Source: Desulfovibrio sp. (lineage in GTDB: Bacteria; Desulfobacterota; Desulfovibrionia; Desulfovibrionales; Desulfovibrionaceae). From it: a DNA stretch of 11,524 nt. The translations under genes were made by a program, and so were the position numbers. The notes beneath the pieces are model-generated. The model was given only the letters and a program-made list of their open reading frames with translations, did not search any database and was not told the DNA's origin. The DNA lies in NCBI GenBank assembly GCA_014804915.1, contig JAAUYW010000085.1, forward strand, positions 1 through 11,524. The letters run 5' to 3'. Below, one piece after another: positions 1 to 11,524 of this stretch (position 1 is the first letter of the stretch; each line of letters starts with the position of its first letter).

Positions 1-1163
1 TAGGAATATTATATGATAGAATAGAAGGAGGGGGAATTGAAACCACAATTAGGAATATATGCCAGGAAATATATCCTGAGCATTTTAATATTGTTTTATT
101 TTTACATGAAAGAGTTAAGGATTCTTCTATAATTCCAGCTGGAATTAAAATTGTATATCTGTCTTCACCGCAATCAAGCAGGTCAAGTATATATGATTTT
201 ATTAATGAGCTGAAGACTGGACTTGAAGAAAATTCAATCTCGATCTTAATGCATTGGTGGATTCATGGCCCCGCTCTTTTGTGGATTACACTACTATGCC
301 ATTTGATGGATATTGCTGTTCTTACATCAATACGGTTTGATCACAATTTTGAAGTTATTTCCCGGCGTCAGCATTATCCTCATACATCAATGCTTAATAC
401 ATTGCGTTGCATTGATAAAATATCCTGTCTTAATATATCTTCAGAAATATATTTAAGGCTTCAGGGAATAGATGCAATTTATTTGCCTAATACAGTAAGG
501 CAATGGGATGAGCCAATACCATGTAACAAAAGAGAAAACAATATTGCTGTTTCCTGTCGCCTTCATGATCGCAAAAAAGGCATTCGTCACTGCTTGCTGG
601 TACTGAAAGAAGTATTGCGGTATTGCCCTAATGCCAAAATGATTTTTATAGGCTCCTTTGAAATGCCTGAACGCGAGAAGATATTTTATGAGCGAGCTAA
701 AAATCTAAATCTACTCGAACATATAGACGTAACTGGCTGGATACGCGATCCCGCAGAAGTCCTTGATCAGTGCAAGGTCGGGTTTTCAGCATCATTCATG
801 GAAGGATTTCCCAATACTGTGGCAGATGCCCAAGCCAGGGGTTTGCCACTTGTCATGTATGATCTGGATATCTCGATTGCTGATAACAATCCAAGCATTA
901 TACGCGTTCCACAACAGGACATAAAAGGAGCTGCAATAGAATTGGCAAATTTGCTGCTAAATGACGATATGCGCCAGCATCTATCCAGAGTGGCGCTTGA
1001 AAACATAAAAAGGTTTTCCCGTGAACGTTTTAAAAGAGATATTCTAGACTTCCTGAAAAATTTTGATTCCATGTCCCATATGCGGAGTTATTCTCCAGGG
1101 GAATATAGGCGCGCTTTGCAGATGATGGCCTGGTATGCGGGCAAGAGCATGCCTGATTATTGA
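1..1163 (+). CDS. GT4-family glycosyltransferase, C-terminal part (5' end outside window)
   Basis: The frame is open from base 3, well upstream of the first ATG at 249, and the residues before that ATG are real protein: GILYDRIEGGGIETTIRNI matches the nucleotide-sugar-enzyme N-terminal Rossmann motif (GILYTMLGNGGAERVIL) of the paralogue downstream. The visible 386 residues therefore cover a whole GT-B fold GT4 domain, and the start codon and probably an N-terminal GT-A half lie outside the window. The second Rossmann half shows IYLPNTVR, ISCRLHDRKKG-like donor-loop residues, IFIGSF, VTGWIRD and EGFPNTVADAQARGLP. The usual E-x7-E donor signature reads E-x7-D here (801-827). The role is inferred as transfer of a sugar from a nucleotide donor during surface-glycan assembly at the cytoplasmic membrane face. 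The stop is 13 bases before the next gene. The family is confident; donor and acceptor are unknown. Confidence 0.85.
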   Translation, partial: GILYDRIEGGGIETTIRNICQEIYPEHFNIVLFLHERVKDSSIIPAGIKIVYLSSPQSSRSSIYDFINELKTGLEENSISILMHWWIHGPALLWITLLCHLMDIAVLTSIRFDHNFEVISRRQHYPHTSMLNTLRCIDKISCLNISSEIYLRLQGIDAIYLPNTVRQWDEPIPCNKRENNIAVSCRLHDRKKGIRHCLLVLKEVLRYCPNAKMIFIGSFEMPEREKIFYERAKNLNLLEHIDVTGWIRDPAEVLDQCKVGFSASFMEGFPNTVADAQARGLPLVMYDLDISIADNNPSIIRVPQQDIKGAAIELANLLLNDDMRQHLSRVALENIKRFSRERFKRDILDFLKNFDSMSHMRSYSPGEYRRALQMMAWYAGKSMPDY

Positions 1164-1176
1164 AGAGGTAATCGGA

Positions 1177-1665
1177 ATGGACGAATATAATCTTTTTGCG
1201 CTAATCTCAGCCAGCTTGCCTCCTGAAGTGGATCCGGCCATGCTCAAGGTCGCTTGTCCCCCGGGCTGGTGGACCTCCAGGCCTGAAGCGGCGGCAGCCT
1301 ATGCCTTAAGAAAATGCAAATATCTCGACTGGAATGCATATCTGGCTAACAATCCAGATCTGCGAGATCTTTCAGTAGATCCTGTTACACATTTTCTAAA
1401 AGATGGACTTTATGAAGGCAGAAAACTTTATTACTGTAAAGAGAATCACAAGCACCATGATACAAATAGTCCTGTATTTTCAATAATACTATATTGTAAA
1501 AATGATGAACTTTATATCGATAAATCATTTCACTCAATAACACATCAGCATTTTGATAATATAGAAATATTTATAATAGACGATGCTTCGGATGATAATT
1601 CACTTAAAATAATCCAAAAATTTTGTGCAAATGATAAAAGAATTAGAGTTTTATCCTTTTCTTAG
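1177..1665 (+). CDS. N-terminal fragment of the interrupted glycosyltransferase
   Basis: If TAG 1663-1665 terminates, this gives a 162-residue product: a predicted soluble leader, one DP..HFL..G..EGR repeat and the first half of a GT-A domain, ending in RIRVLSFS just before the segment that carries the metal motif. Such a fragment would lack a complete nucleotide-sugar site and is unlikely to be a working enzyme. An upstream in-frame ATG at 1135 overlaps the previous gene and has no visible ribosome site, so 1177 is preferred. Confidence 0.5.
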   Translation: MDEYNLFALISASLPPEVDPAMLKVACPPGWWTSRPEAAAAYALRKCKYLDWNAYLANNPDLRDLSVDPVTHFLKDGLYEGRKLYYCKENHKHHDTNSPVFSIILYCKNDELYIDKSFHSITHQHFDNIEIFIIDDASDDNSLKIIQKFCANDKRIRVLSFS

Positions 1666-1731
1666 GATAAAGGAAAGAATATTTCAAGAAAAATTGCGCT
1701 AAATGAATCAAAAGGTTCATATATAATTTTT

Positions 1732-3606
1732 ATGGATGCCTGTGATTACCTTGAACAAGGATCATTACAAACTATTTATGAGGTTATGTTGCAAGGCTAT
1801 GATCTGGGCGTATTTGCGTTAAACTGGCATAAGAGATTTTTAAGGCCAGCTATAGATTTAAGATACCGCGCCTTGGGTTATGGTACTGTAAACGAGAAAT
1901 CTTACCATTTATCTAAAAAAGGACACGATGTTCAGAATCTTCTAAATGCCAGACTTCATAGTTATGTATGCACAAGAGATCTTTGTGTTAATGTATTCAA
2001 CGATCTTCCAGATAATAACTTTTCACAAATGGAAGATGCTCTTGAAGCTTGTATGCTAAAATTGGGGTCTAAAAGTATTAATATTGACAAACGAAAGATT
2101 TATGCAGTACGTGAAATAGAACGTAATAATGAAGATCTACTTACTGAAATGGCATTTCCAGTTTTGAAAGGCTATATGGAATCACATGGCCACAATGAAG
2201 ATCTAAAAGATGTGATGAGTAATTTCGTTAGCGCCATGATTCCAGCTTGGCTCGATTTACATTCAGGAGACAATATAAGAAAATTATTTGATTGTCTGGT
2301 CCAACAATTTGGTATCTACGAGATTCTAAATTATCTCATGGATCACCACGGCAAGGACTGGGAACTAATTGCAAGCCAGTTTCAGCATTACGGCTCCATT
2401 GCAGCAACTATACAACCGAAGCGGATTGGCATTCTCTACACCATGCTTGGCAATGGAGGCGCTGAACGTGTCATACTTGAACTTGTGAAACTTCTGGATG
2501 CCGCTGGATATGAAGTCATCCTTTTTCTCGGGCGTCCAAATGAGAATGAGAAAGAACTTCCGAATCATGTAAAAAGGATTTACGTCGGCGCCCAGGATGA
2601 AACACAGAAACAATTCAAGGAGCATTTAAAGACACTTGGAATGAGTCTTGAGCAGCATCCAGTTGATGTTATGCTGTGCCATGCAGTTTATTTTGGTGAT
2701 CTGCTTTGGCAAATAATGCTAATCAAATACATGAAAATTCCTGCGATAATTTTTGTCCATGGCTCGTTTTTTAATAAGCTCGTGGCGCCCCCCACAAAAT
2801 TTGATATGCAAACTCAGGCAGCAATCCTGCGCTGTGCTGATAAGGTATCTGTATTGTCTCCATATGAGGAACTTTATTACCGTACTCTGGGGGTCGATGC
2901 CGTATATATTCCAAATCCTGTAAGGCTTCCAGGTATAGATGAGCATATAAATACCGACTTTGATAATAGGAAGGATAACATAATAGTTTTTGGCAGAATG
3001 CAAGAATCTTCAAAAAATATGACAGATTGCCTATTAATTTTGCGGGAGGTTGCAAAATATAGAAAATCAATTAAAATGACTTTTATTGGCTCATTTACCC
3101 AAAATTATATTAAGACGGATTTTGAAAACAGGGCTAGAAAACTGGGAGTACTTGACAGGATCTCAATTACTGGCTGGGTGAATGATTCACACAAATATAT
3201 TGATGCCTCTGCGATTCTTCTTTCTTGCGCATATACAGAATCTTTTTCATTGACAATTGTGGAAGCGCAATCAAGAGGGCTGCCAGTTATTATGTATGAT
3301 ATGCCTATCGCTCCAGCCATAAATAATAAAAGCATAATAAAAATAAGGCATGGAGCGATAAAAGATGCCGCCAGGAATATTCTATCAATACTTGAGGACG
3401 AGGTAAAATGGCATACGCTTTCCCAGATTGCGAAAGAAAATAGTCTTAAATTTTCTTCGCTTGAATATCTTAACAAGATAATTAATTTATTAAATAATTA
3501 TAATAAATATTCAATAGTCTCAGATCCCTCCCCAGAAACTTATACAACAATCATGAAGACGCTTGGCTTCTATGGCGCAACTGTGCCGCCATGGTTAAGA
3601 AAATGA
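1732..3606 (+). CDS. C-terminal fragment of the interrupted glycosyltransferase (rest of GT-A + GT4)
   Basis: This is the downstream part, in the same frame as the 1177-1665 fragment. ATG 1732 is only the first methionine after the TAG and sits inside the GT-A metal motif (MDACDYLE). There is no ribosome-binding site in the AT-rich bases before it, so it is not a believable natural start. The complete GT4 domain (nt about 2422-3540), with its intact E-x7-E signature at 3238-3264, could still fold if it were translated by re-initiation or read-through. Its ending (YGATVPPWLRK) resembles that of the upstream partial GT4 gene (YAGKSMPDY), so the two are tandem paralogues. Confidence 0.55.
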   Translation: MDACDYLEQGSLQTIYEVMLQGYDLGVFALNWHKRFLRPAIDLRYRALGYGTVNEKSYHLSKKGHDVQNLLNARLHSYVCTRDLCVNVFNDLPDNNFSQMEDALEACMLKLGSKSINIDKRKIYAVREIERNNEDLLTEMAFPVLKGYMESHGHNEDLKDVMSNFVSAMIPAWLDLHSGDNIRKLFDCLVQQFGIYEILNYLMDHHGKDWELIASQFQHYGSIAATIQPKRIGILYTMLGNGGAERVILELVKLLDAAGYEVILFLGRPNENEKELPNHVKRIYVGAQDETQKQFKEHLKTLGMSLEQHPVDVMLCHAVYFGDLLWQIMLIKYMKIPAIIFVHGSFFNKLVAPPTKFDMQTQAAILRCADKVSVLSPYEELYYRTLGVDAVYIPNPVRLPGIDEHINTDFDNRKDNIIVFGRMQESSKNMTDCLLILREVAKYRKSIKMTFIGSFTQNYIKTDFENRARKLGVLDRISITGWVNDSHKYIDASAILLSCAYTESFSLTIVEAQSRGLPVIMYDMPIAPAINNKSIIKIRHGAIKDAARNILSILEDEVKWHTLSQIAKENSLKFSSLEYLNKIINLLNNYNKYSIVSDPSPETYTTIMKTLGFYGATVPPWLRK

Positions 3607-3632
3607 ATTAATATAAAAAATACGAGTCAGGA

Positions 3633-5528
3633 ATGCGCTGGAATTTTGTCCCCAAAGACAAGTTACAAAAGCTGTCTGAAATTGCGCTGAAGCATAATTT
3701 GAAGGCTGAGAATATAGGCGACGAACTCGTCATTCAGCTGCTTCAGCAATTGGATTTATTTGACGTAGAATTTTATGAGACAACATACCCTGATGTGAAA
3801 AATGCTGACATTGATCCATTGATGCATTATATAAAAATTGGCTGGAGGGAAGGCAGAAACCCAAATATCTGGTTCGATACGAACCTGTATGTGCGGGAAA
3901 ATCCAGAAATTATTGTAAATCCTTTTCTTCACTTCATAATTCACGGATTTAATGAAGAAAGACGCCCAAATTCACAGGAGCGAAAAAAAAGGGGGCGCTT
4001 AATTGTTTCCCTGGAGGCAACAGCAAGCGAATATGACACTATCGCTGCAACTATTGAATCCCTTCTTTGTCAGAGCATGCCTGCTGACAAAATAATAATA
4101 CAGATGTCAAAGAATTCCCTTTTAGATCAGCAATATGTATATAATTTTATCGAATTGATAGATAGAGGACTCGACATACACTGGCATGATGAGCCGGAAG
4201 GATACGGCGCTGTCATTCCCGCATTGATCAATTACCCTGATGATATTATAATTACATGCGGATGTGAGCGATCCCTTGAGCCAGATTTTCTTGAGAAGCT
4301 CTGGGAAGCATATATCAGAAAGCCCTCAGACGTGCACTGTTTTTTCGCTTCAAGGTTGAACCTGGAAAAGGGCAATACCCCTCTCCCGCCAGGAGAACAT
4401 GAGAATGATCCCGCTGCCTCCTTTCTCATTATTCCCCATGCTCGGCATGGAATGCTTTTGCCGCCCCGGGTCTGGAGTCCCATTGCTACAGAACGCGCGA
4501 TTTACTCAAGGCACGCACCCAGGTGCCCTGATCTTTGGTACTGGATGATGAGTGTATATTCAGGAATAGCAATAAATACAGTTCCTGATGAATCTGGAAA
4601 AAGCAGGACAATTGAAATTATCCATGATATAAGCAAGTTAGAAAAAAATCAGAAACAAGAGTTGATTAGTTTACTATATTTTTTCAAAGACGAAATCATG
4701 CATAAGCTAAACATTAGCATTTATGATGCATGCCTTAAGAACGAAGTGAAGGATGCCTATTATAATAAATATAGAAAGAACCTAGATTTTGCTAATATAA
4801 GTTCTTTTACGGAAAAAATACAATATCTTAAGGTCTATGATGATTTACCCATCAAATCTTTATTATCTGACAAATATCTAATAAGAAAATATATCCGCGA
4901 TAAGATAGGTGAGGAGTTCTTAATCCCATTACTTGGCATCTGGCCCACATTTGAACAAATTAATTTTGACATATTACCGAAGCAGTTCGTTTTAAAAACT
5001 AACCACGCAAGTGGTTCAAACCAAATTATAAGATCAAAATTTTCGATTAATAAGAACCAACTTCAGATAAAATTTAATAAATGGATGAGCAAAAATTATG
5101 CACTAAATTGCTGGGAAATGAACTATTTTAATATTAAACCATTAATCATGGCTGAATACTTTCTTGGAGACAATATATCAGATTACAAATTTGTGTGTAG
5201 TCTGGGAAGAATACTTTTCATATATGTTGATGTAAACAAAAATTCTGATTACCGAAGAAATATTTATTCTGAAGATTGGATTCTCCAGGAATGGAATCTA
5301 CGCTTTAGAAATTCGGATATTGATATTCCAAGACCAGAGCGTCTCGACGAAATGATTGATATTGCGCGTTTCCTTTCAAGACAATTTAAACTTGTAAGTA
5401 TAGATTTTTATTACTACAATAATAATATCAAGATTGGAGAAATGACATTCTATCCAGGAGCAGGCTATAACACTTTTTATCCATTAGAGGCTGACTATTT
5501 AGTAGGAAAGCATATTCAAATTTATTAA
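3633..5528 (+). CDS. GT-A-like / TupA-like ATP-grasp fusion protein
   Basis: A 631-residue cytoplasmic protein with three parts. Residues about 38-112 are two repeats of the YPDV..ADIDPLMHYI..GW.EGR type, also found once in the neighbouring glycosyltransferase. Residues about 121-320 resemble the GT-A-like domain that reads VSL..Y....TIESLL.Q....DKIIL...PALK.YPDDIIITADDD in typical members. Here it reads YPDDIIITCGCERSLEP (201-217), so the acidic metal triad is lost. Residues about 374-625 match the TupA-like ATP-grasp family (named for teichuronopeptide synthesis): DKYLIRKYIRDKIGEEFLIP (413-432), FVLKTNHASGS (452-462), DYKF (517-520), SIDFYYY and KIGEMTFYPGAG (600-611). ATP-grasp enzymes ligate carboxylates to amines, so it may add an amino acid or peptide to the glycan; this is inferred. 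The start has only a weak site (GAG 3624-3626; AGGA touches the ATG). It lies 26 bases after the previous stop. Confidence 0.8.
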   Translation: MRWNFVPKDKLQKLSEIALKHNLKAENIGDELVIQLLQQLDLFDVEFYETTYPDVKNADIDPLMHYIKIGWREGRNPNIWFDTNLYVRENPEIIVNPFLHFIIHGFNEERRPNSQERKKRGRLIVSLEATASEYDTIAATIESLLCQSMPADKIIIQMSKNSLLDQQYVYNFIELIDRGLDIHWHDEPEGYGAVIPALINYPDDIIITCGCERSLEPDFLEKLWEAYIRKPSDVHCFFASRLNLEKGNTPLPPGEHENDPAASFLIIPHARHGMLLPPRVWSPIATERAIYSRHAPRCPDLWYWMMSVYSGIAINTVPDESGKSRTIEIIHDISKLEKNQKQELISLLYFFKDEIMHKLNISIYDACLKNEVKDAYYNKYRKNLDFANISSFTEKIQYLKVYDDLPIKSLLSDKYLIRKYIRDKIGEEFLIPLLGIWPTFEQINFDILPKQFVLKTNHASGSNQIIRSKFSINKNQLQIKFNKWMSKNYALNCWEMNYFNIKPLIMAEYFLGDNISDYKFVCSLGRILFIYVDVNKNSDYRRNIYSEDWILQEWNLRFRNSDIDIPRPERLDEMIDIARFLSRQFKLVSIDFYYYNNNIKIGEMTFYPGAGYNTFYPLEADYLVGKHIQIY

Positions 5529-5550
5529 ACGCAAAAAAGGAATGCAAAAA

Positions 5551-6255
5551 ATGGAAATCCCTGTCATTTTCCAAGCGCCATTAGACATTTTTGGCGTATG
5601 CAATGAGCCAGTTACTCAAACCGAAAAAAGATTAATTACTTCAATCCATAAAGAATTTAATAAAGCCCCTGCAATTGATACATCAAAGATTAGGGCTTTT
5701 CGATTGATGAAAGGAAAGAGAAGATGGATGGAGATCGGTACTGAATCAAAAGCAAATCTTGCATATATGACACATATTTTAGATGACCCCAATTTAATAA
5801 TAGATATAGATATTCATAACAATGAAGAAGGCAAGAAAAGATTATATGATCTTTCTGATAATCTTAATTATCATTTTCTGGAAGGAAGCAGTAGTGATGC
5901 TATAATAAAAAACAGGATTGATAAAATTTTGAGCGGGATAAAGTTAGATGGATTATTTATAGATGGAAACCATATGTTTAATTACGTTTTTAATGATTTT
6001 GCCTCTTATTATAAATATTTAAGTTCAGATGGATTTATTTTTTTTCACGATATATATTTCATCGGTCATTCAAAATCCAAAGGCGTTGCTCAGTTTCTTT
6101 CTTGGTTGAGCACAATACTTCCAGTTTATCAAATATCCGGAGACAGGGCTGCATCTCTTTATATGCCACACTATTCGCCAGAAACAGTTTGGGGTGGTAT
6201 AGCTATTGTTACTATGAAGGATATTTTAGCATTAGAAAAAAAGTTAATATATTAG
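5551..6255 (+). CDS. Class I SAM-dependent methyltransferase (Methyltransf_24-like)
   Basis: Encodes about 234 residues. MEIGTESKANLAYM is motif I of the SAM-binding Rossmann fold. It is followed by an acidic strand (IIDIDIH), LEGSSSDAI, and DGLFIDGNHMFNYVFNDF with GFIFFHDI, the His/Asp signature of the family often found in O-methyltransferases of glycan clusters. It is the last gene of the AT-rich operon, 13-22 bases after the ATP-grasp fusion gene. A role in methylating or capping the growing glycan is plausible but inferred. Two in-frame ATGs exist. At 5542 the AAGGA site touches the codon; at 5551 it lies nine bases upstream, so 5551 is preferred (5542 adds only MQK). No signal peptide or membrane segment is seen. 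Confidence 0.75.
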   Translation: MEIPVIFQAPLDIFGVCNEPVTQTEKRLITSIHKEFNKAPAIDTSKIRAFRLMKGKRRWMEIGTESKANLAYMTHILDDPNLIIDIDIHNNEEGKKRLYDLSDNLNYHFLEGSSSDAIIKNRIDKILSGIKLDGLFIDGNHMFNYVFNDFASYYKYLSSDGFIFFHDIYFIGHSKSKGVAQFLSWLSTILPVYQISGDRAASLYMPHYSPETVWGGIAIVTMKDILALEKKLIY

Positions 6256-6479: not shown

Positions 6480-7475
6480 ATGACACTAAATGCCTTTGTC
6501 GCCAAAAACGCGCCAACTGCCTGCAAGGGCCTTTTGCTCTCCATTGGCATGAGCGGCGCTGTGATTTTTGGCGTTGCCATGAATGCGCCCGATCTCTCCT
6601 CCTTTGCTGCTTTCGGCTCCATGCTGGCTCTCAACATCACGCCCAGGCATGGCGCGATCGCGAAAATATTCGGCGCTTTCGCCGGCTGCCTGTTCCTGCT
6701 GCTAGCTGCCTGCCTGGGCGTATTCCTGTCCAAATCCTCTTTCCTGGCCCTGGTGCTCCTGTTTTTCTTCAGCTGGCTGGCCGCCCTGCCCAAAAAGGAT
6801 ATCATGTATATCAGCTTTGTGGTCAAATTCGCAGCCATCGCCGTGCTTCTGAATTATTTTGATTTTTCCTTTTCCCTGCCAATGGGCCTTTATTTTTGCG
6901 GCGGCCTCCTGCTGGGCCTTTTCCTGAGTCTTGCGGCGACTGCCTTTGAAACAGAAAACGAGCAGCGTCCCATCGACCAGCTGCGCAAGCTGCTGCATGG
7001 CGACATCAACAGTATCGGCTACTCCCTCACTGTTCCCGTAACAGTTGTCATATCCTCGCTTATTGCCGCAAACTTTTCCTACGCAAACCCGGCCTGGGTC
7101 GGGCTTACTGTGATATTTGTCTCCAATTCAGATCCGCATCTGGAATTGAAACGGGCCTTCGCCAGAATCACGGGCACAATTGCTGGCACAGTTTTATCCT
7201 ATTTTATTCTGGATGCGATTCAGCTCCCCTTGCGCCTTGCCCTGATAGTGGGCGTGCTGGCCTTTTTTCTGCCTTTTGTTTCCAGGCGCTACAGCCTCTT
7301 CAGCCTCCTCATCACATGCATTGTGCTGATCCTGATCAATATCGCCATGTTTGCCCAGGGCGGAGACATGGACCTGCTTTTGTGGCGCTCCATAGACACC
7401 GTCTTTGGCTGCGGCTGCGTGATGGTCGCAAATATCCTCATGCGTTTTATCCAGCGCAAGTCCGCGCATGAATGA
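6480..7475 (+). CDS. FUSC-family inner-membrane protein
   Basis: Encodes 331 residues, mostly hydrophobic, with about nine to ten predicted membrane segments in two clusters (about 15-155 and 180-320) around a short polar loop with ETENEQRPIDQLRKLL (157-171). The C-terminal half carries the fusaric-acid-resistance-like signature: WVGLTVIFVSNSDPHLELKR followed by AFARITGTIAGTVLSYF (206-242), and then LLWRSIDTVFGCGCVMVANI (300-319). The family includes aromatic-acid and toxin efflux proteins (AaeB, FusC types). At 331 residues this is a short form without the large cytoplasmic insert, so substrate and direction are unknown. The start is well supported: AAGG at 6468-6471 with an eight-base spacer. 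Composition is clearly GC-richer than the genes before it, and it is separated from them by the suspect junction, so it is probably not part of that operon. Confidence 0.8.
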   Translation: MTLNAFVAKNAPTACKGLLLSIGMSGAVIFGVAMNAPDLSSFAAFGSMLALNITPRHGAIAKIFGAFAGCLFLLLAACLGVFLSKSSFLALVLLFFFSWLAALPKKDIMYISFVVKFAAIAVLLNYFDFSFSLPMGLYFCGGLLLGLFLSLAATAFETENEQRPIDQLRKLLHGDINSIGYSLTVPVTVVISSLIAANFSYANPAWVGLTVIFVSNSDPHLELKRAFARITGTIAGTVLSYFILDAIQLPLRLALIVGVLAFFLPFVSRRYSLFSLLITCIVLILINIAMFAQGGDMDLLLWRSIDTVFGCGCVMVANILMRFIQRKSAHE

Positions 7476-7593: not shown

Positions 7594-8670
7594 ATGAAAG
7601 GACTGGTGAAAATCGCCGCGCTGGCCACACTGTTGCTGGGCTTTGCGTTTTCAGCCCTTGCGGAAGAAGGGCGCCTGAATTTCATGCTGATCAACCTAAC
7701 CGGGCAGGATATAACTGATGTCAGGATCTGTCCGACGTATTATCCCCAGTACCAGAGCGAGAACCTGCTTCGCAATGCCCTGGCGCCCGAGCATCACATT
7801 TATATCGGGCCCAATTATTACGGAGAGCAGATATTCTGGAATATCGCCGTGAAATGGGCAAATGGCCACGAGCAAACTTTCAGCAAGCTCAGGCTCACGC
7901 GCTACAACACCTATACGGTATATTCCACTCCCCAGGGCATCCGGATTCGCCAGACTTTTGATCCGCAAAACGCCCGCTACGCCTTTGGGCCGGAGGCTCC
8001 GTCGTACATGGGAGCAAAGCCCGAGGTAAAAGTGGCGGCCACCAGTCCCAAAAAGCTGAATGCGGCGCTTGCCCTGGCGGTGGACATGAATGCGGAGCCT
8101 GGCAAGAAGGCGGACGCGCAGGCCGACAAGCTCGCTTTTGGCGCGCAGGACAGGATTTCCGACAAGGCAATGGCAATCAAGACCACGGCGGAAGTAACGC
8201 GCGCCGGCAAGAACATGGCAGTCAATCCCAAGGGCGAGTTCAAGGCTGGCGACAAGATCAGGCTGCGCTTCACAACCAACAGGGATGGACATGTTTACTG
8301 GGTGAAAAAGGATGGGGAGAGCAATTATCACATTCTTTACCCGACAGCGCAGGATGGCTCCGGCGTTTCCGGAAACAGGATCTATACGATTCCCGCTTCC
8401 GAGCCGCTCCAGTTTGATGGCAGCGCCGAGACCCTGTTTGCCATTCTTTCGCCAACAGATGTGACGGATCTTGCCAAGGCTGCCAAATTGCAGGCTGAAG
8501 GCAAATTCACGGAAGCTTCAAAGCTGATTGCCGCGCTTGTGGACAGGCACGAGCAGCAAAAGAACACGAATACGGTAATCATCGAGGAAGAAGACGAAGA
8601 TGACGTCAATATGCAATCGCAGCTGGCGGATGGCGAGTTCGTGGGCGAATACGAAATTGGCGGCGAATAG
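7594..8670 (+). CDS. Secreted DUF4384-domain protein with acidic C-terminus
   Basis: Encodes 358 residues. A clear Sec signal peptide (KGLVK, hydrophobic core, cleavage after SALA at about residue 23) puts it in the periplasm or envelope. Residues about 26-125 form a small beta-rich domain beginning LNFMLINLTGQDITDVRICP, like the N..TG..I..L.ISP envelope domains of unknown role. A low-complexity Lys/Ala linker (about 140-205) follows. Residues about 212-290 match DUF4384: FKAGDKIRLRFTTNRDGHVY, HILYP, IYTIP and ETLFAILSPTDV. The tail contains an acidic run, EEEDEDD (331-337). DUF4384 is often attached to envelope, stress or secretion-associated proteins, but its ligand is not known. The start has GGAG five bases upstream. 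The strong terminator at 8692-8730 ends the transcript. No function is assigned beyond location. Confidence 0.8.
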   Translation: MKGLVKIAALATLLLGFAFSALAEEGRLNFMLINLTGQDITDVRICPTYYPQYQSENLLRNALAPEHHIYIGPNYYGEQIFWNIAVKWANGHEQTFSKLRLTRYNTYTVYSTPQGIRIRQTFDPQNARYAFGPEAPSYMGAKPEVKVAATSPKKLNAALALAVDMNAEPGKKADAQADKLAFGAQDRISDKAMAIKTTAEVTRAGKNMAVNPKGEFKAGDKIRLRFTTNRDGHVYWVKKDGESNYHILYPTAQDGSGVSGNRIYTIPASEPLQFDGSAETLFAILSPTDVTDLAKAAKLQAEGKFTEASKLIAALVDRHEQQKNTNTVIIEEEDEDDVNMQSQLADGEFVGEYEIGGE

Positions 8671-8691
8671 GCATTCCTGAAATTGAACACG

Positions 8692-8730
8692 AAAAAGGGG
8701 ATCTCCGGCCTTGCGGGAGATCCCCTTTTT
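8692..8730. terminator. Bidirectional rho-independent terminator between convergent genes
   Basis: AAAAAGGGGATCTCC (8692-8706) and GGAGATCCCCTTTTT (8716-8730) form a perfect 15-bp stem around a nine-base loop. The core is GC-rich and there is a T run on both strands, so it serves the DUF4384 gene (ends 8670, plus) and the ATPase gene (ends 8758, minus). Confidence 0.95.
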
Positions 8731-8757
8731 GCGCGTTAAAGCAAGGGGTTGCCTGAA

Positions 8758-10911
8758 CTATTCCGGAATGGCGGAACTTTGGATTGAATAGGGGCGGATA
8801 GCGCTAAGCGCGATGCTTATTGTCGTCATGTTGTGAAGGATCGCCGTAAGCGCCGGGCCGAAAAAGCCGGTTAGCGCGCCCAGAAGATAGAAGGAATTCA
8901 GTCCGATGCCGAGCTTCACATTCAAATGAATGCGCTGCATTGCCTTGCGTGAGAGAACGGTTATCTGGGGGAGCCCGCCAAGAGATGGCTGGGTGAGCAA
9001 TACATTCGCTACAGCCCGGGCAAGATCAGTCCCGTCCCCCATTGCCACGCCCACTGCGGAAGCAGAGAGTGCCGGCCCGTCATTTATGCCATCGCCGACC
9101 ATCATCACGCGCCAGCCCTCCCTGCCCAGACGCTGGATTATATCCGCCTTGTCATCAGGCAGGACATGGGCATACACTTCGGAAATGCCGGCCTGACTGG
9201 CTATCGCATCGGCTGTGCGCCTGTCATCTCCGGTGATCATGGCTATCCTTGTGAAGCCGAGCTTGCGCATGGCCGCAATTACCGCGCTGGCTTCCGGGCG
9301 CAACGGATCAGAAATCACGCACATTCCCGCGGCTTTTCCGCCAATGGACAAGAACAGCAACGTATTTCCAAGAGCCTGTTCACTTTCAATCTCCCTGGAA
9401 AACACATCCAGGCTCACGCCTTCCTCCGCCTCTATGTAATGGCGGCTGCCAAAAAATACCGGCTGTCCTGAAATGCTGGATGAAATGCCATGCGCGACCA
9501 CATATTCCACTTGCGCATGTTCTTCCTCATGCCCTACATGTTCCTTTTTTGCCTGCCGGACAATGGCCCTGGAAACAGGATGGGGAAAATGCTCCTCAAG
9601 GCAGGCCATGATCTTCAGGATTTCCCTGCGGTCATTGCCAGGCGCGGGAACAATCCGCACGACTTCCGGCCTCGCCCTTGTGAGTGTTCCTGTCTTGTCA
9701 AGAACCAGGGCGTTTGCGCCCGCAATAGCTTCAAGATACTTGCCGCCCCTGACTGCCGTGCCATTCTTCGCCCCTATCCGCATGGCGGTCAGGGCAGCCA
9801 ATGGAGTCGCCAGCTTGAGCGTGCAGGAGTAGTCCACCAAAAGAACTGATGAAGCGCGCATCAAATTGCCAGTAAGCAGCCACACAAGTCCGGCCAGGGC
9901 AAAAGTAAGCGGCACGGCCTTGTCTGCAAGCCTGGTGTAATGGGCTTCAATGGCGGATTTTTGAACCTCGGATTGCTGAATGAAGCTGAGCACCTGATGC
10001 AGCCTGGTGCTTTCACCCGTCTGGCTGACCTTTATAACTATGCGGCCGGATTCCACAATCGTGCCAGCGTACACAGCGCCGCCCTTGCCGCGTTCCACCG
10101 GAATCGGCTCGCCTGTGAATGCCGCCTGGTTTACGAGCGCCGAGCCTGCCCTGATAATGCCGTCCACCGGAATGCTTGAGCCCGCATTGACGACGACCAG
10201 ATCGCCCTGCCTGACCATTGCAATCGGCACTTTTACTTCGGCATCTTCCTCGTCCAGCACCCAGACCTTGTCAACATCCAGGGCGAGACTCTCGCCAAGG
10301 GATGAAAGCGAGCGCTGCCTTGTCCACACTTCAAGCGCGTCGCCAACAGCCAGAAGCATGGACAGCATCGCGACTGTGCCATAATCCCCATTCAGCATTG
10401 ATACCGTCAGGGCGGAAGCATCCAGCACGTCCACATTCAGCCTGCCCCTCGCAAGGGAGCGAATTCCTTTCATGATAAACGGCAGCGCGGCCAGCGAGCT
10501 GATCACAATCCTCCAAGAGGGAGGCAGGAAGGGCCGCAGGAGAAAGTACCTCGCCACTCCAATCCATGCGCCTGCCGGATTTTCACCTGTCAGAAGGTCT
10601 TCGACCTCTTCGGCTGTAATGCCCTTGTGAGCCCGCCAGTCAAAATCCCTTTCCAGAAACCGGATCGCGGCCTCCTTGTCCGCTTCCCTGTCCGCAAAGA
10701 ACAGGACGCTTTTTGTCAGATGATTAATCTGGACGCCTGTGATGCCCCGGATTTTGGCAAGCTCGCGCGTCATCGCCCTGGCAATGCGCGCGCTCACAAG
10801 ATCAGAATGGCGAAGACGAACCCTGTAGCCATGCCACCGGTTCGCAGGCAGTTCATGCACTCTTTCGCACTTGCCCGCGCTGGCTGAAAACGCCGGGGCC
10901 ATGCTCGTCAT
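8758..10911 (-). CDS. Heavy-metal-translocating P1B-type ATPase with SCT motif (P1B-6 / FezB-like candidate)
   Basis: Encodes 717 residues with the full P-type ATPase core: actuator TGEP (266-269), phosphorylation site DKTGT (405-409), HP locus HFPHP (441-445), TGD (560-562) and hinge GDGIND (606-611). The membrane metal motif, normally CPC or SPC in P1B pumps, reads VDYSCTLKLATP (359-370). The last helix pair carries GFFGPALTAILHN..T (682-697). The N-terminus (about 28-90) is an HMA-like domain starting YRVRLRH, without the CxxC metal site. SC-A/T at this helix is what I recall for P1B-6 pumps, the class of ferrosome protein FezB; Mn or Zn export (CtpC-like) is an alternative. The metal is not proven. 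Start ATG overlaps the upstream stop as ATGA (10908-10911), so the pair is translationally coupled. ATG 10902, nine bases after GGCGGA, is a possible alternative. Confidence 0.85.
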   Translation of the reverse strand: MTSMAPAFSASAGKCERVHELPANRWHGYRVRLRHSDLVSARIARAMTRELAKIRGITGVQINHLTKSVLFFADREADKEAAIRFLERDFDWRAHKGITAEEVEDLLTGENPAGAWIGVARYFLLRPFLPPSWRIVISSLAALPFIMKGIRSLARGRLNVDVLDASALTVSMLNGDYGTVAMLSMLLAVGDALEVWTRQRSLSSLGESLALDVDKVWVLDEEDAEVKVPIAMVRQGDLVVVNAGSSIPVDGIIRAGSALVNQAAFTGEPIPVERGKGGAVYAGTIVESGRIVIKVSQTGESTRLHQVLSFIQQSEVQKSAIEAHYTRLADKAVPLTFALAGLVWLLTGNLMRASSVLLVDYSCTLKLATPLAALTAMRIGAKNGTAVRGGKYLEAIAGANALVLDKTGTLTRARPEVVRIVPAPGNDRREILKIMACLEEHFPHPVSRAIVRQAKKEHVGHEEEHAQVEYVVAHGISSSISGQPVFFGSRHYIEAEEGVSLDVFSREIESEQALGNTLLFLSIGGKAAGMCVISDPLRPEASAVIAAMRKLGFTRIAMITGDDRRTADAIASQAGISEVYAHVLPDDKADIIQRLGREGWRVMMVGDGINDGPALSASAVGVAMGDGTDLARAVANVLLTQPSLGGLPQITVLSRKAMQRIHLNVKLGIGLNSFYLLGALTGFFGPALTAILHNMTTISIALSAIRPYSIQSSAIPE

Positions 10912-11183
10912 TCCGCCTGCGCTCCAGCGCCGGAATTCTTCTCCATATTCTCCTCATTCACCTTGTCGCGGGCCTCAGCCGCCATGTCCTCGATATCCTC
11001 TTTCACTGCGGCCATTTTACGCATCATCTGATCCTTGATGACCAGTCCCCTGGCCATGCAATCAGTCGCAATTGGCTTCATATAGCTGAAATCAAGCCGG
11101 TTGCGATTCAGGCAAGCCAGACCCGCGGCTCCGGCAATTGCGCCGCCAAAAAAAGCCCAGAAAATTTTTGCGCCGCTACTCAT
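10908..11183 (-). CDS. Small membrane protein with glycine zipper, partner of the P-type ATPase (PacL/DUF1490-like?)
   Basis: Encodes 91 residues. A single N-terminal membrane segment, IFWAFFGGAIAGAAGLACL, contains stacked small residues (GG..AG..G) of glycine-zipper type. It is followed by a charged, helical cytoplasmic tail: MKPIATDCMARGLVIKDQMM, then VKEDIEDMAAEARDKVNEEN. The tail resembles, from memory, mycobacterial PacL1 (DUF1490), whose A(D/E)(V/M)xAEARxRIGEE segment precedes a metal-binding end and which works with the ATPase CtpC; the His-rich end is missing here. GGAGG (11193-11197) sits nine bases before ATG 11183, so this start is chosen over the longer frame to 11387. That frame would cover the promoter region and overlap the divergent gene. 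The stop overlaps the ATPase start (ATGA). A chaperone, scaffold or oligomer-forming role is inferred from context only. Confidence 0.75.
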   Translation of the reverse strand: MSSGAKIFWAFFGGAIAGAAGLACLNRNRLDFSYMKPIATDCMARGLVIKDQMMRKMAAVKEDIEDMAAEARDKVNEENMEKNSGAGAQAE

Positions 11184-11299
11184 GCGTTCTGTCCTCCATG
11201 CGAAAATTTTGTTGGCCAGAGCTTGCATGAAAATCCGAAATATGTCAATGAAACTGAAAACTAAATTCAAATCCATTGTTTGACACTGAGGTAAAGACC
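11184..11299. promoter_or_regulatory. Divergent promoter/operator region of the metal locus
   Basis: These 116 bases separate two divergent genes, each with a good ribosome site (GGAGG at 11193-11197 on minus, GAGG at 11288-11291 on plus). On the minus strand a perfect TTGACA (11248 down to 11243) is followed after 17 bases by a poor -10 (CAAGCT). Between the genes TGAA-N7-TTCA (11255-11269) and the outer pair TGTCAATG (11243-11250) and CATTG (11274-11278) with TTGACA (11280-11285) make an imperfect palindrome. The 15-base TGAAAACTAAATTCA has a 7-1-7 layout reminiscent of a weak Fur box. A metal-responsive operator is possible but unproven. Confidence 0.3.
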
Positions 11300-11524
11300 A
11301 TGAAAAGCTATCTGAAGCATGTGTCAGCCGAGCGGGCCCGGCTACGCCATCCGGCATTTGCCAAACCCCAAGCGCGGCAGCTGGCATTGGAAGTTCTGCA
11401 AAAACAGCCCGGAATCGCCGGCGTCAAGCCCGGTCCGGAATCCTTTTTGCTTTATCTTGAAGCGGATGCCAATCTGGATCAGATATGCCTGAATCTGGAA
11501 AAGAACGTTCCCGAACTGGCCGCA
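11300..11524 (+). CDS. HMA-like domain protein without CxxC (3' end outside window)
   Basis: The frame is open from ATG 11300 to the last base, 75 codons, with GAGG (11288-11291) eight bases upstream. The visible part, containing RARLRHPAF, LALEVLQKQPGIAGVKPG and ESFLLYLEAD, has the beta-alpha-beta pattern of a heavy-metal-associated domain but no CxxC site; the only Cys is in DQICLNL. It aligns well with the N-terminal domain of the ATPase in this window (RVRLRHSDL, LAKIRGITGVQIN, KSVLFFAD), sharing R.RLRH, GI.GV and S.L. It is divergent to the small protein and ATPase, so it is likely in the same regulon. It may be a partner or scaffold of the metal pump. The full length is unknown, and more domains or membrane segments may follow. 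Confidence 0.65.
   Translation, partial: MKSYLKHVSAERARLRHPAFAKPQARQLALEVLQKQPGIAGVKPGPESFLLYLEADANLDQICLNLEKNVPELAA

Follow-up and report, generated by a model that had tools for sequence, protein, structure and literature searches.

A probable ferrosome (fez) locus with a divergent fezC at the end of a Desulfovibrio contig

Which metal is handled by a P1B-type ATPase locus at the end of a Desulfovibrio contig, and is that metal expelled or stored? The stretch in question (the window) comprises contig JAAUYW010000085.1 (C85) in its entirety, 11,524 nucleotides from an assembly of 1.55 Mb that is 69.6% complete. A prediction made from the sequence alone (the original prediction) had described an ATPase gene, a 91-residue membrane protein gene and a divergent open reading frame, all three of which were confirmed, and had read them as a ferrosome-like (fez) locus, ferrosomes being small membrane-bound compartments that hold iron, or as a sister system for another metal such as Mn or Zn. 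The first of these readings is supported here, as each of the three genes has a counterpart of its own family in the P1B-6 operon of Solidesulfovibrio (Desulfovibrio) magneticus RS-1. The window therefore probably carries the fez locus of a Desulfovibrio-type bacterium, in which FezA would gather FezB into Fe(II) storage vesicles under the control of Fur, with FezC acting on the redox state of the iron. Its features are as follows (papers are cited throughout by PMC accession).

8758..10911, minus strand: fezB, a P1B-6-type ATPase of 717 residues and predicted Fe(II) pump (open reading frame, profile matches, alignment, tree).
9817..9825, minus strand: SCT triplet in the metal-site transmembrane helix, residues 363–365 of the ATPase (alignment with the RS-1 ATPase).
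8830..8835, minus strand: HN motif, residues 693–694 of the ATPase, a P1B6 hallmark according to PMC9374683 (alignment with the RS-1 ATPase).
10908..11183, minus strand: fezA, a 91-residue DUF6110 (PacL-like) membrane protein, with an ATGA overlap with fezB (open reading frame, profiles, relatives).
11184..11299, no strand: intergenic (promoter) region shared by fezA and fezC, 116 bp (limits of the open reading frames, site scan).
11254..11270, no strand: predicted delta-proteobacterial Fur box, CTGAAAACTAAATTCAA (the top-scoring site of the window, 15.7 bits; similar placement in relatives).
11300..11524, plus strand: 5' part of fezC, 75 codons, HMA-like domain with an R-x-R-x-R motif (truncated by the contig end; complete homologue in L080, 6960–7400).

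The reference locus (L069) lies in genome G286, which is that of RS-1 (a 5-kb plasmid stretch is 100% identical to NC_012797.1), and one FezB-like match is listed for this genome at E ≤ 1e-120 in the family-wide search. Its operon runs in one direction through an 86-residue DUF6110-like gene, a 743-residue P1B-6 ATPase gene and a 146-residue HMA-like gene with a C-terminal hairpin; the two genes preceding it resemble, by eye, cytochrome bd subunits. We take this operon to be fezABC. We infer the assignment from the gene order and from the literature, in which ferrosomes and fez genes are ascribed to RS-1 (PMC12748827, PMC12713370), FezB is described as a putative transporter of ferrous iron, and a likeness of RS-1 FezC to DUF4405 is noted (PMC11334425). 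Since RS-1, a ferrosome maker, has all three families together in a single operon, the window is read as fezA-fezB with a divergent fezC.

The ATPase of the window is 44% identical to that of RS-1 over 603 residues (E = 4e-159) and contains the motifs DKTGT, GDGIND, VDYSCTLKLATP and LHNMTT. It combines an SCx triplet with the HN motif, as expected of a P1B-6 FezB and distinct from the CPC pumps, and the HN motif is invariant in all 11 rows of alignment A1. The SCT triplet and the HMA-like N-terminus without CxxC that had been described originally are both present, the N-terminus scoring 18.7 bits against HMA_2 (curated cut-off 30). In the 91 HN ATPases whose motif could be read, a set in which at least one gene is present twice (L051 = L102), the metal-site triplet is SCA in 87 and SCT in one, that of the window, whose nearest relatives (62–63% identity) carry SCA. 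The P1B-6 class was defined with 'SCT'.

A tree of the core region of 67 ATPases (quick IQ-TREE run, with the Shimodaira–Hasegawa-like approximate likelihood ratio test, SH-aLRT, as its sole support measure; long branches at L126 and some outgroup rows, and 11 rows of odd letter composition) placed all 46 SCx/HN rows on one side of a single branch (98). Within that side, a group of 40 rows (99) contains the window, RS-1, Bacillota and Methanobrevibacter, with six SCx/HN rows outside it (L067, L068, L119, L123, L124, L128), and the CtpC-like CPC rows (L131, L133, L137) fall outside the SCx/HN side altogether. A grouping of the window with the CtpC-like pumps was rejected by the approximately unbiased (AU) test (p = 6e-7); clustering with CtpC, named beforehand as the result that would speak against a fez locus, was thus not found. 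Two observations were made alongside. Five ATPases (L130, L134, L135, L136, L148) have D-[YF]-x-T-[GA] replacing SCx, with an HMA-like open reading frame upstream in four of the five; four of them group together in the tree (L148 was not included). P1B-6 ATPases also occur in methanogens (L091, L092, L094, L098; Methanovirga/Methanobrevibacter) and in Streptococcus marimammalium (L126); those of L094, L098 and L126 are preceded by a FezA-like gene.

The small membrane protein adjoining fezB, which is 91 residues long when read from the ATG at 11183, includes a hydrophobic segment rich in glycine. The stop of its gene overlaps the ATPase start, in keeping with the translational coupling that had been proposed. 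It is 29% identical to RS-1 FezA over 59 residues (E = 5e-7), so that a lack of likeness to Fez accessory proteins, the other result named beforehand as adverse, was not observed either. It matches DUF6110 in Pfam at 28.0 bits, just over the cut-off of 26, with no match in NCBIfam. In a 16-row FezA alignment G14 and G18 (four residues apart), K50, E62, A69 and A71 are invariant, and DUF6110 matches all 16 rows at E ≤ 0.1, several of them under the curated cut-off.

The divergent gene is 55% identical over 73 residues to the complete L080 gene (E = 2.6e-19) and matches a profile built from HMA-like FezC-type proteins; it is on account of these relatives that it is called HMA-like, which bears out the original description for the N-terminal part. 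The membrane half is complete in L080, L081 and L035, and a search of the assembly returned no further piece of fezC beyond one insignificant match (E = 0.2). In an 18-row alignment (A2), R12, R14 and R16 (R-x-R-x-R), S48 and L50 do not vary, and H124 and H138, the histidines of the hairpin, are nearly invariant. HMA_2 scores over its cut-off on the FezC-like proteins of L054, L057 and RS-1 and under it on that of L050; Pfam gave no match for those of L036 and L080. Weak DUF4405 matches (L057, E = 0.089; RS-1, E = 0.2) agree with the description of FezC in PMC11334425. The predicted structure of the L102 homologue has an N-terminal alpha/beta domain (block predicted local distance difference test score, pLDDT, 82–91) and a less certain helix hairpin; the top Foldseek match of the domain is the metal-binding domain of a copper ATPase at E = 2.6e-3, with none at E ≤ 0.001.

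Gene arrangement was compared across the window and sampled relatives, comprising 53 HN-type ATPases in 52 loci. A FezA-like gene lies upstream on the same strand in 51 of the 53 (that of L067 was undetected by a narrower profile), and a FezC-like gene is upstream and divergent in 28, downstream on the same strand in 13 (including RS-1) and placed otherwise in 6, with none found for the remaining 6. These frequencies show that the arrangement is not chance. The split, divergent layout had been thought a variant; it is instead common in the genus, and the nearest relatives whose contig shows the locus (L035, L080–L082) share it. Among 41 HN-flagged ATPases from named genome records, which include two CPC pumps (L140, L154), a FezA-like gene was found upstream in 31 and a FezC-like gene in 6; several of the ATPases lacking FezA begin close to the end of their contig (L091, L092, L108, L132). 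On L048 (14294–16474) a second P1B-6 ATPase, with no FezA-like gene adjoining, lies near the first on the same contig.

Two lines of evidence, the neighboring genes in the genus and the predicted Fur boxes, point to iron. The gene feoA is upstream in 20 of the 53 ATPase cases and downstream in one, which suggests a possible role for FeoA in supplying or regulating the fez machinery. The upstream copies are on the same strand as fezA/fezB (L036, L037, L039, L041–L045, L047, L049, L052, L053, L059–L062, L079, L083–L085). Downstream of fezB in 26 of the 53 is a gene for a short HMA-like protein (~96 residues) with a GRVRIRHP motif (e.g. L041 7825–8118, L039 6361–6654), a possible iron carrier for FezB. 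Neither feoA nor the short HMA gene was found by these scans at the locus in the window and its nearest relatives (L035, L080–L082). For Fur, a matrix was built from 39 published delta-proteobacterial sites (PMC545781); the score of the box at 11254–11270 was reached by 0.55% of shuffles of the interval. In 35 of 50 loci, against 3.9 expected, the top match falls in the 1 kb upstream of fezA, although with related loci and a 1-kb rule chosen post hoc these are not 50 independent trials and yield no true P value. L034 (no room) and L068 (no FezA) were left out, and the 15 misses are L038, L040, L051, L052, L054–L058, L061, L067, L072, L077, L078 and L086. A Fur gene is present in 77 of 79 genomes of the genus (this assembly is one of the two misses) and in 55 of 55 good ones.

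Taken together, these results suggest the following mechanism. When iron is scarce, Fur would release the DNA, and fezAB and fezC would be read from one divergent promoter region. FezA, a membrane protein with a GxxxG transmembrane helix, would gather FezB into membrane patches that become vesicles, into which FezB would move cytoplasmic Fe(II). FezC, in which an HMA-like domain sits on a membrane anchor of two helices whose two histidines may bind heme, would tune the redox state of the vesicle iron, and the outcome would be an iron store for an anaerobe.

DUF6110 and DUF1490 (PacL) have already been linked in PMC9374683, and the FezA alignment (A3), compared with 11 PacL-type proteins (L180 under the DUF1490 cut-off; L131/L169 and L137/L171 each the same gene twice), gave an hhalign probability of 66, a pairwise E of 5.6e-5 and a score of 31.2, which none of 150 column-shuffled nulls reached (maximum 15.8; reversed alignment, 12.8). 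This profile comparison makes FezA a relative of PacL, which in mycobacteria is the scaffold gathering metal pumps into clusters, and because RS-1 FezA is among the aligned rows, ferrosome and effluxosome appear to draw on one scaffold family. The kinship is a remote profile similarity: the window FezA has no DUF1490 match in Pfam at E ≤ 1, ends in ...NSGAGAQAE and does not show the combination of DUF1490 with a C-terminal metal-binding motif that marks a PacL. Single FezA rows also match YtxH, DUF5132 and others in Pfam, a warning that short amphipathic proteins draw chance hits. A limited literature search found no paper connecting FezA with PacL, and the word 'ferrosome' occurs neither in PMC9374683 nor in its 2026 sequel.

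The same kinship speaks for an iron-efflux platform that makes no organelle, in which FezA would do for FezB what PacL1 does for CtpC, clustering it in the plasma membrane, and Fe(II) would be expelled from the cell; PacL1 and CtpC do sit together in membrane foci, and the zinc resistance that they confer is most likely due to efflux (PMC9374683). We consider this unlikely, as RS-1, which has these three families too, makes ferrosomes (PMC12748827, PMC12713370) and a Fur box would switch an exporter on just when iron is scarce, so that storage and recovery would fit better than detoxification. A system for Mn, Zn or Ni assembled from fez parts, with SCT marking a change of substrate, could appeal to the window being the sole SCT among the readable HN ATPases. 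However, nothing was found that points to Mn or Zn, and SCA relatives close to the window, the divergent layout that they share with it, the Fur-box matches and the feoA neighbors in the genus make such a system very improbable. An exporter of the CtpC or Zn/Cd kind, accompanied by a small protein of unrelated origin, is more improbable still: the cadmium family TIGR01512 does score over its cut-off (347.9 versus 313.5 bits), but TIGR01525, which covers all heavy-metal pumps, scores higher (501.6 bits), and the tree and AU test described above separate the window from the CtpC-like CPC rows.

Several points weigh against the ferrosome reading itself. Organelle formation by the window locus is predicted from its genes and unproven. 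RS-1 FezA matches DUF6110 weakly (14.2 bits, cut-off 26, E = 0.049), and the threonine of the window triplet departs from the usual SCA. The 75 codons of fezC have no Pfam family match and are cut by the contig end with the membrane half beyond it, and FezC of the window group shows modest similarity to that of RS-1 (L080 versus RS-1, 31% identity over 49 residues, E = 2e-4). The Fur box fails against Markov shuffles of the whole window (95th percentile of maxima, 17.5 bits), the relatedness of the loci tempers the Fur-box count, and a search of this incomplete assembly for a Fur gene found none.

Should the kinship with PacL hold, ferrosomes and mycobacterial effluxosomes could be two outcomes of one old PacL/FezA scaffold that packs P1B pumps into a patch; the fez patch would bud inward, turning an exporter into an iron store, and the divergent, Fur-controlled fezC would add a redox step. 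We put this forward tentatively, at somewhat under even odds; if true, FezA would be the organelle-forming part. The question of how membrane is formed into an iron organelle in bacteria would then become testable through the residues mapped in PacL, and this link is the part most deserving of specialist attention. In the family to which RS-1 belongs, 145 of 288 sampled genomes have a FezB-like ATPase (E ≤ 1e-120), and most of the loci examined there have FezA beside it, so that iron storage of the ferrosome type may be common among its members, often in a divergent fezC layout recognizable by sequence.

The remainder of the window frames the locus. At 8690..8733 (no strand), 3' of fezB, lies a two-way terminator-like hairpin identified by folding energy against shuffles (−30.8 and −32.2 kcal/mol, a stability that none of 200 shuffles equalled for either strand), which was not among the sites listed by a simple scan. 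It parts fezB from a convergent DUF4384 gene (7594–8670, plus strand), and fezAB thus looks like a two-gene unit. Next to the DUF4384 gene is a FUSC-type membrane protein gene (331 residues; 6480–7475, plus strand), the pair lying between fezB and a glycan-assembly cluster (3–6255, plus strand) in which Pfam identifies two GT4-type glycosyltransferases, a TupA-like ATP-grasp protein and a methyltransferase.

Among known systems, the PacL1-CtpC effluxosome of mycobacteria resembles the window in joining a small transmembrane protein, with a glycine-containing transmembrane helix and a charged cytoplasmic helix, to an adjoining P1B pump; CtpC, however, is a CPC zinc pump (PMC9374683) whereas the window ATPase has SCT, and most compared PacL proteins have a His/Asp-rich C-terminal tail that the FezA rows are without. 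FezA and FezB of the window form one of the pairs of DUF6110 (PacL-like) protein and P1B6-ATPase described in PMC9374683, which differs from the present reading in proposing membrane platforms. In Desulfovibrio, Fur boxes were predicted in 2004 for the D. vulgaris P-type ATPase 208856 (PMC545781), compared here by its published table. The fezAB genes of Clostridioides difficile (CD630_05910–05920; compared by description) are likewise a Fur-repressed pair of membrane protein and transporter (PMC12574912, PMC11651100), and the Bacillota homologues examined mostly show the DUF6110-P1B-6 pair, but with no FezC-like neighbor detected among the listed loci. The RS-1 operon taken here as fezABC shares all three protein families with the window, with fezA immediately upstream of fezB, a P1B-6 SCx/HN ATPase and an HMA-like FezC, whose two hairpin histidines are found in RS-1 and in the complete relatives of the window gene; its genes are co-directional whereas fezC of the window is divergent, and its ATPase has SCA in place of SCT. 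The comparison supports the window locus as an additional fez cluster, with the layout usual for its genus and an uncommon threonine in the metal site.

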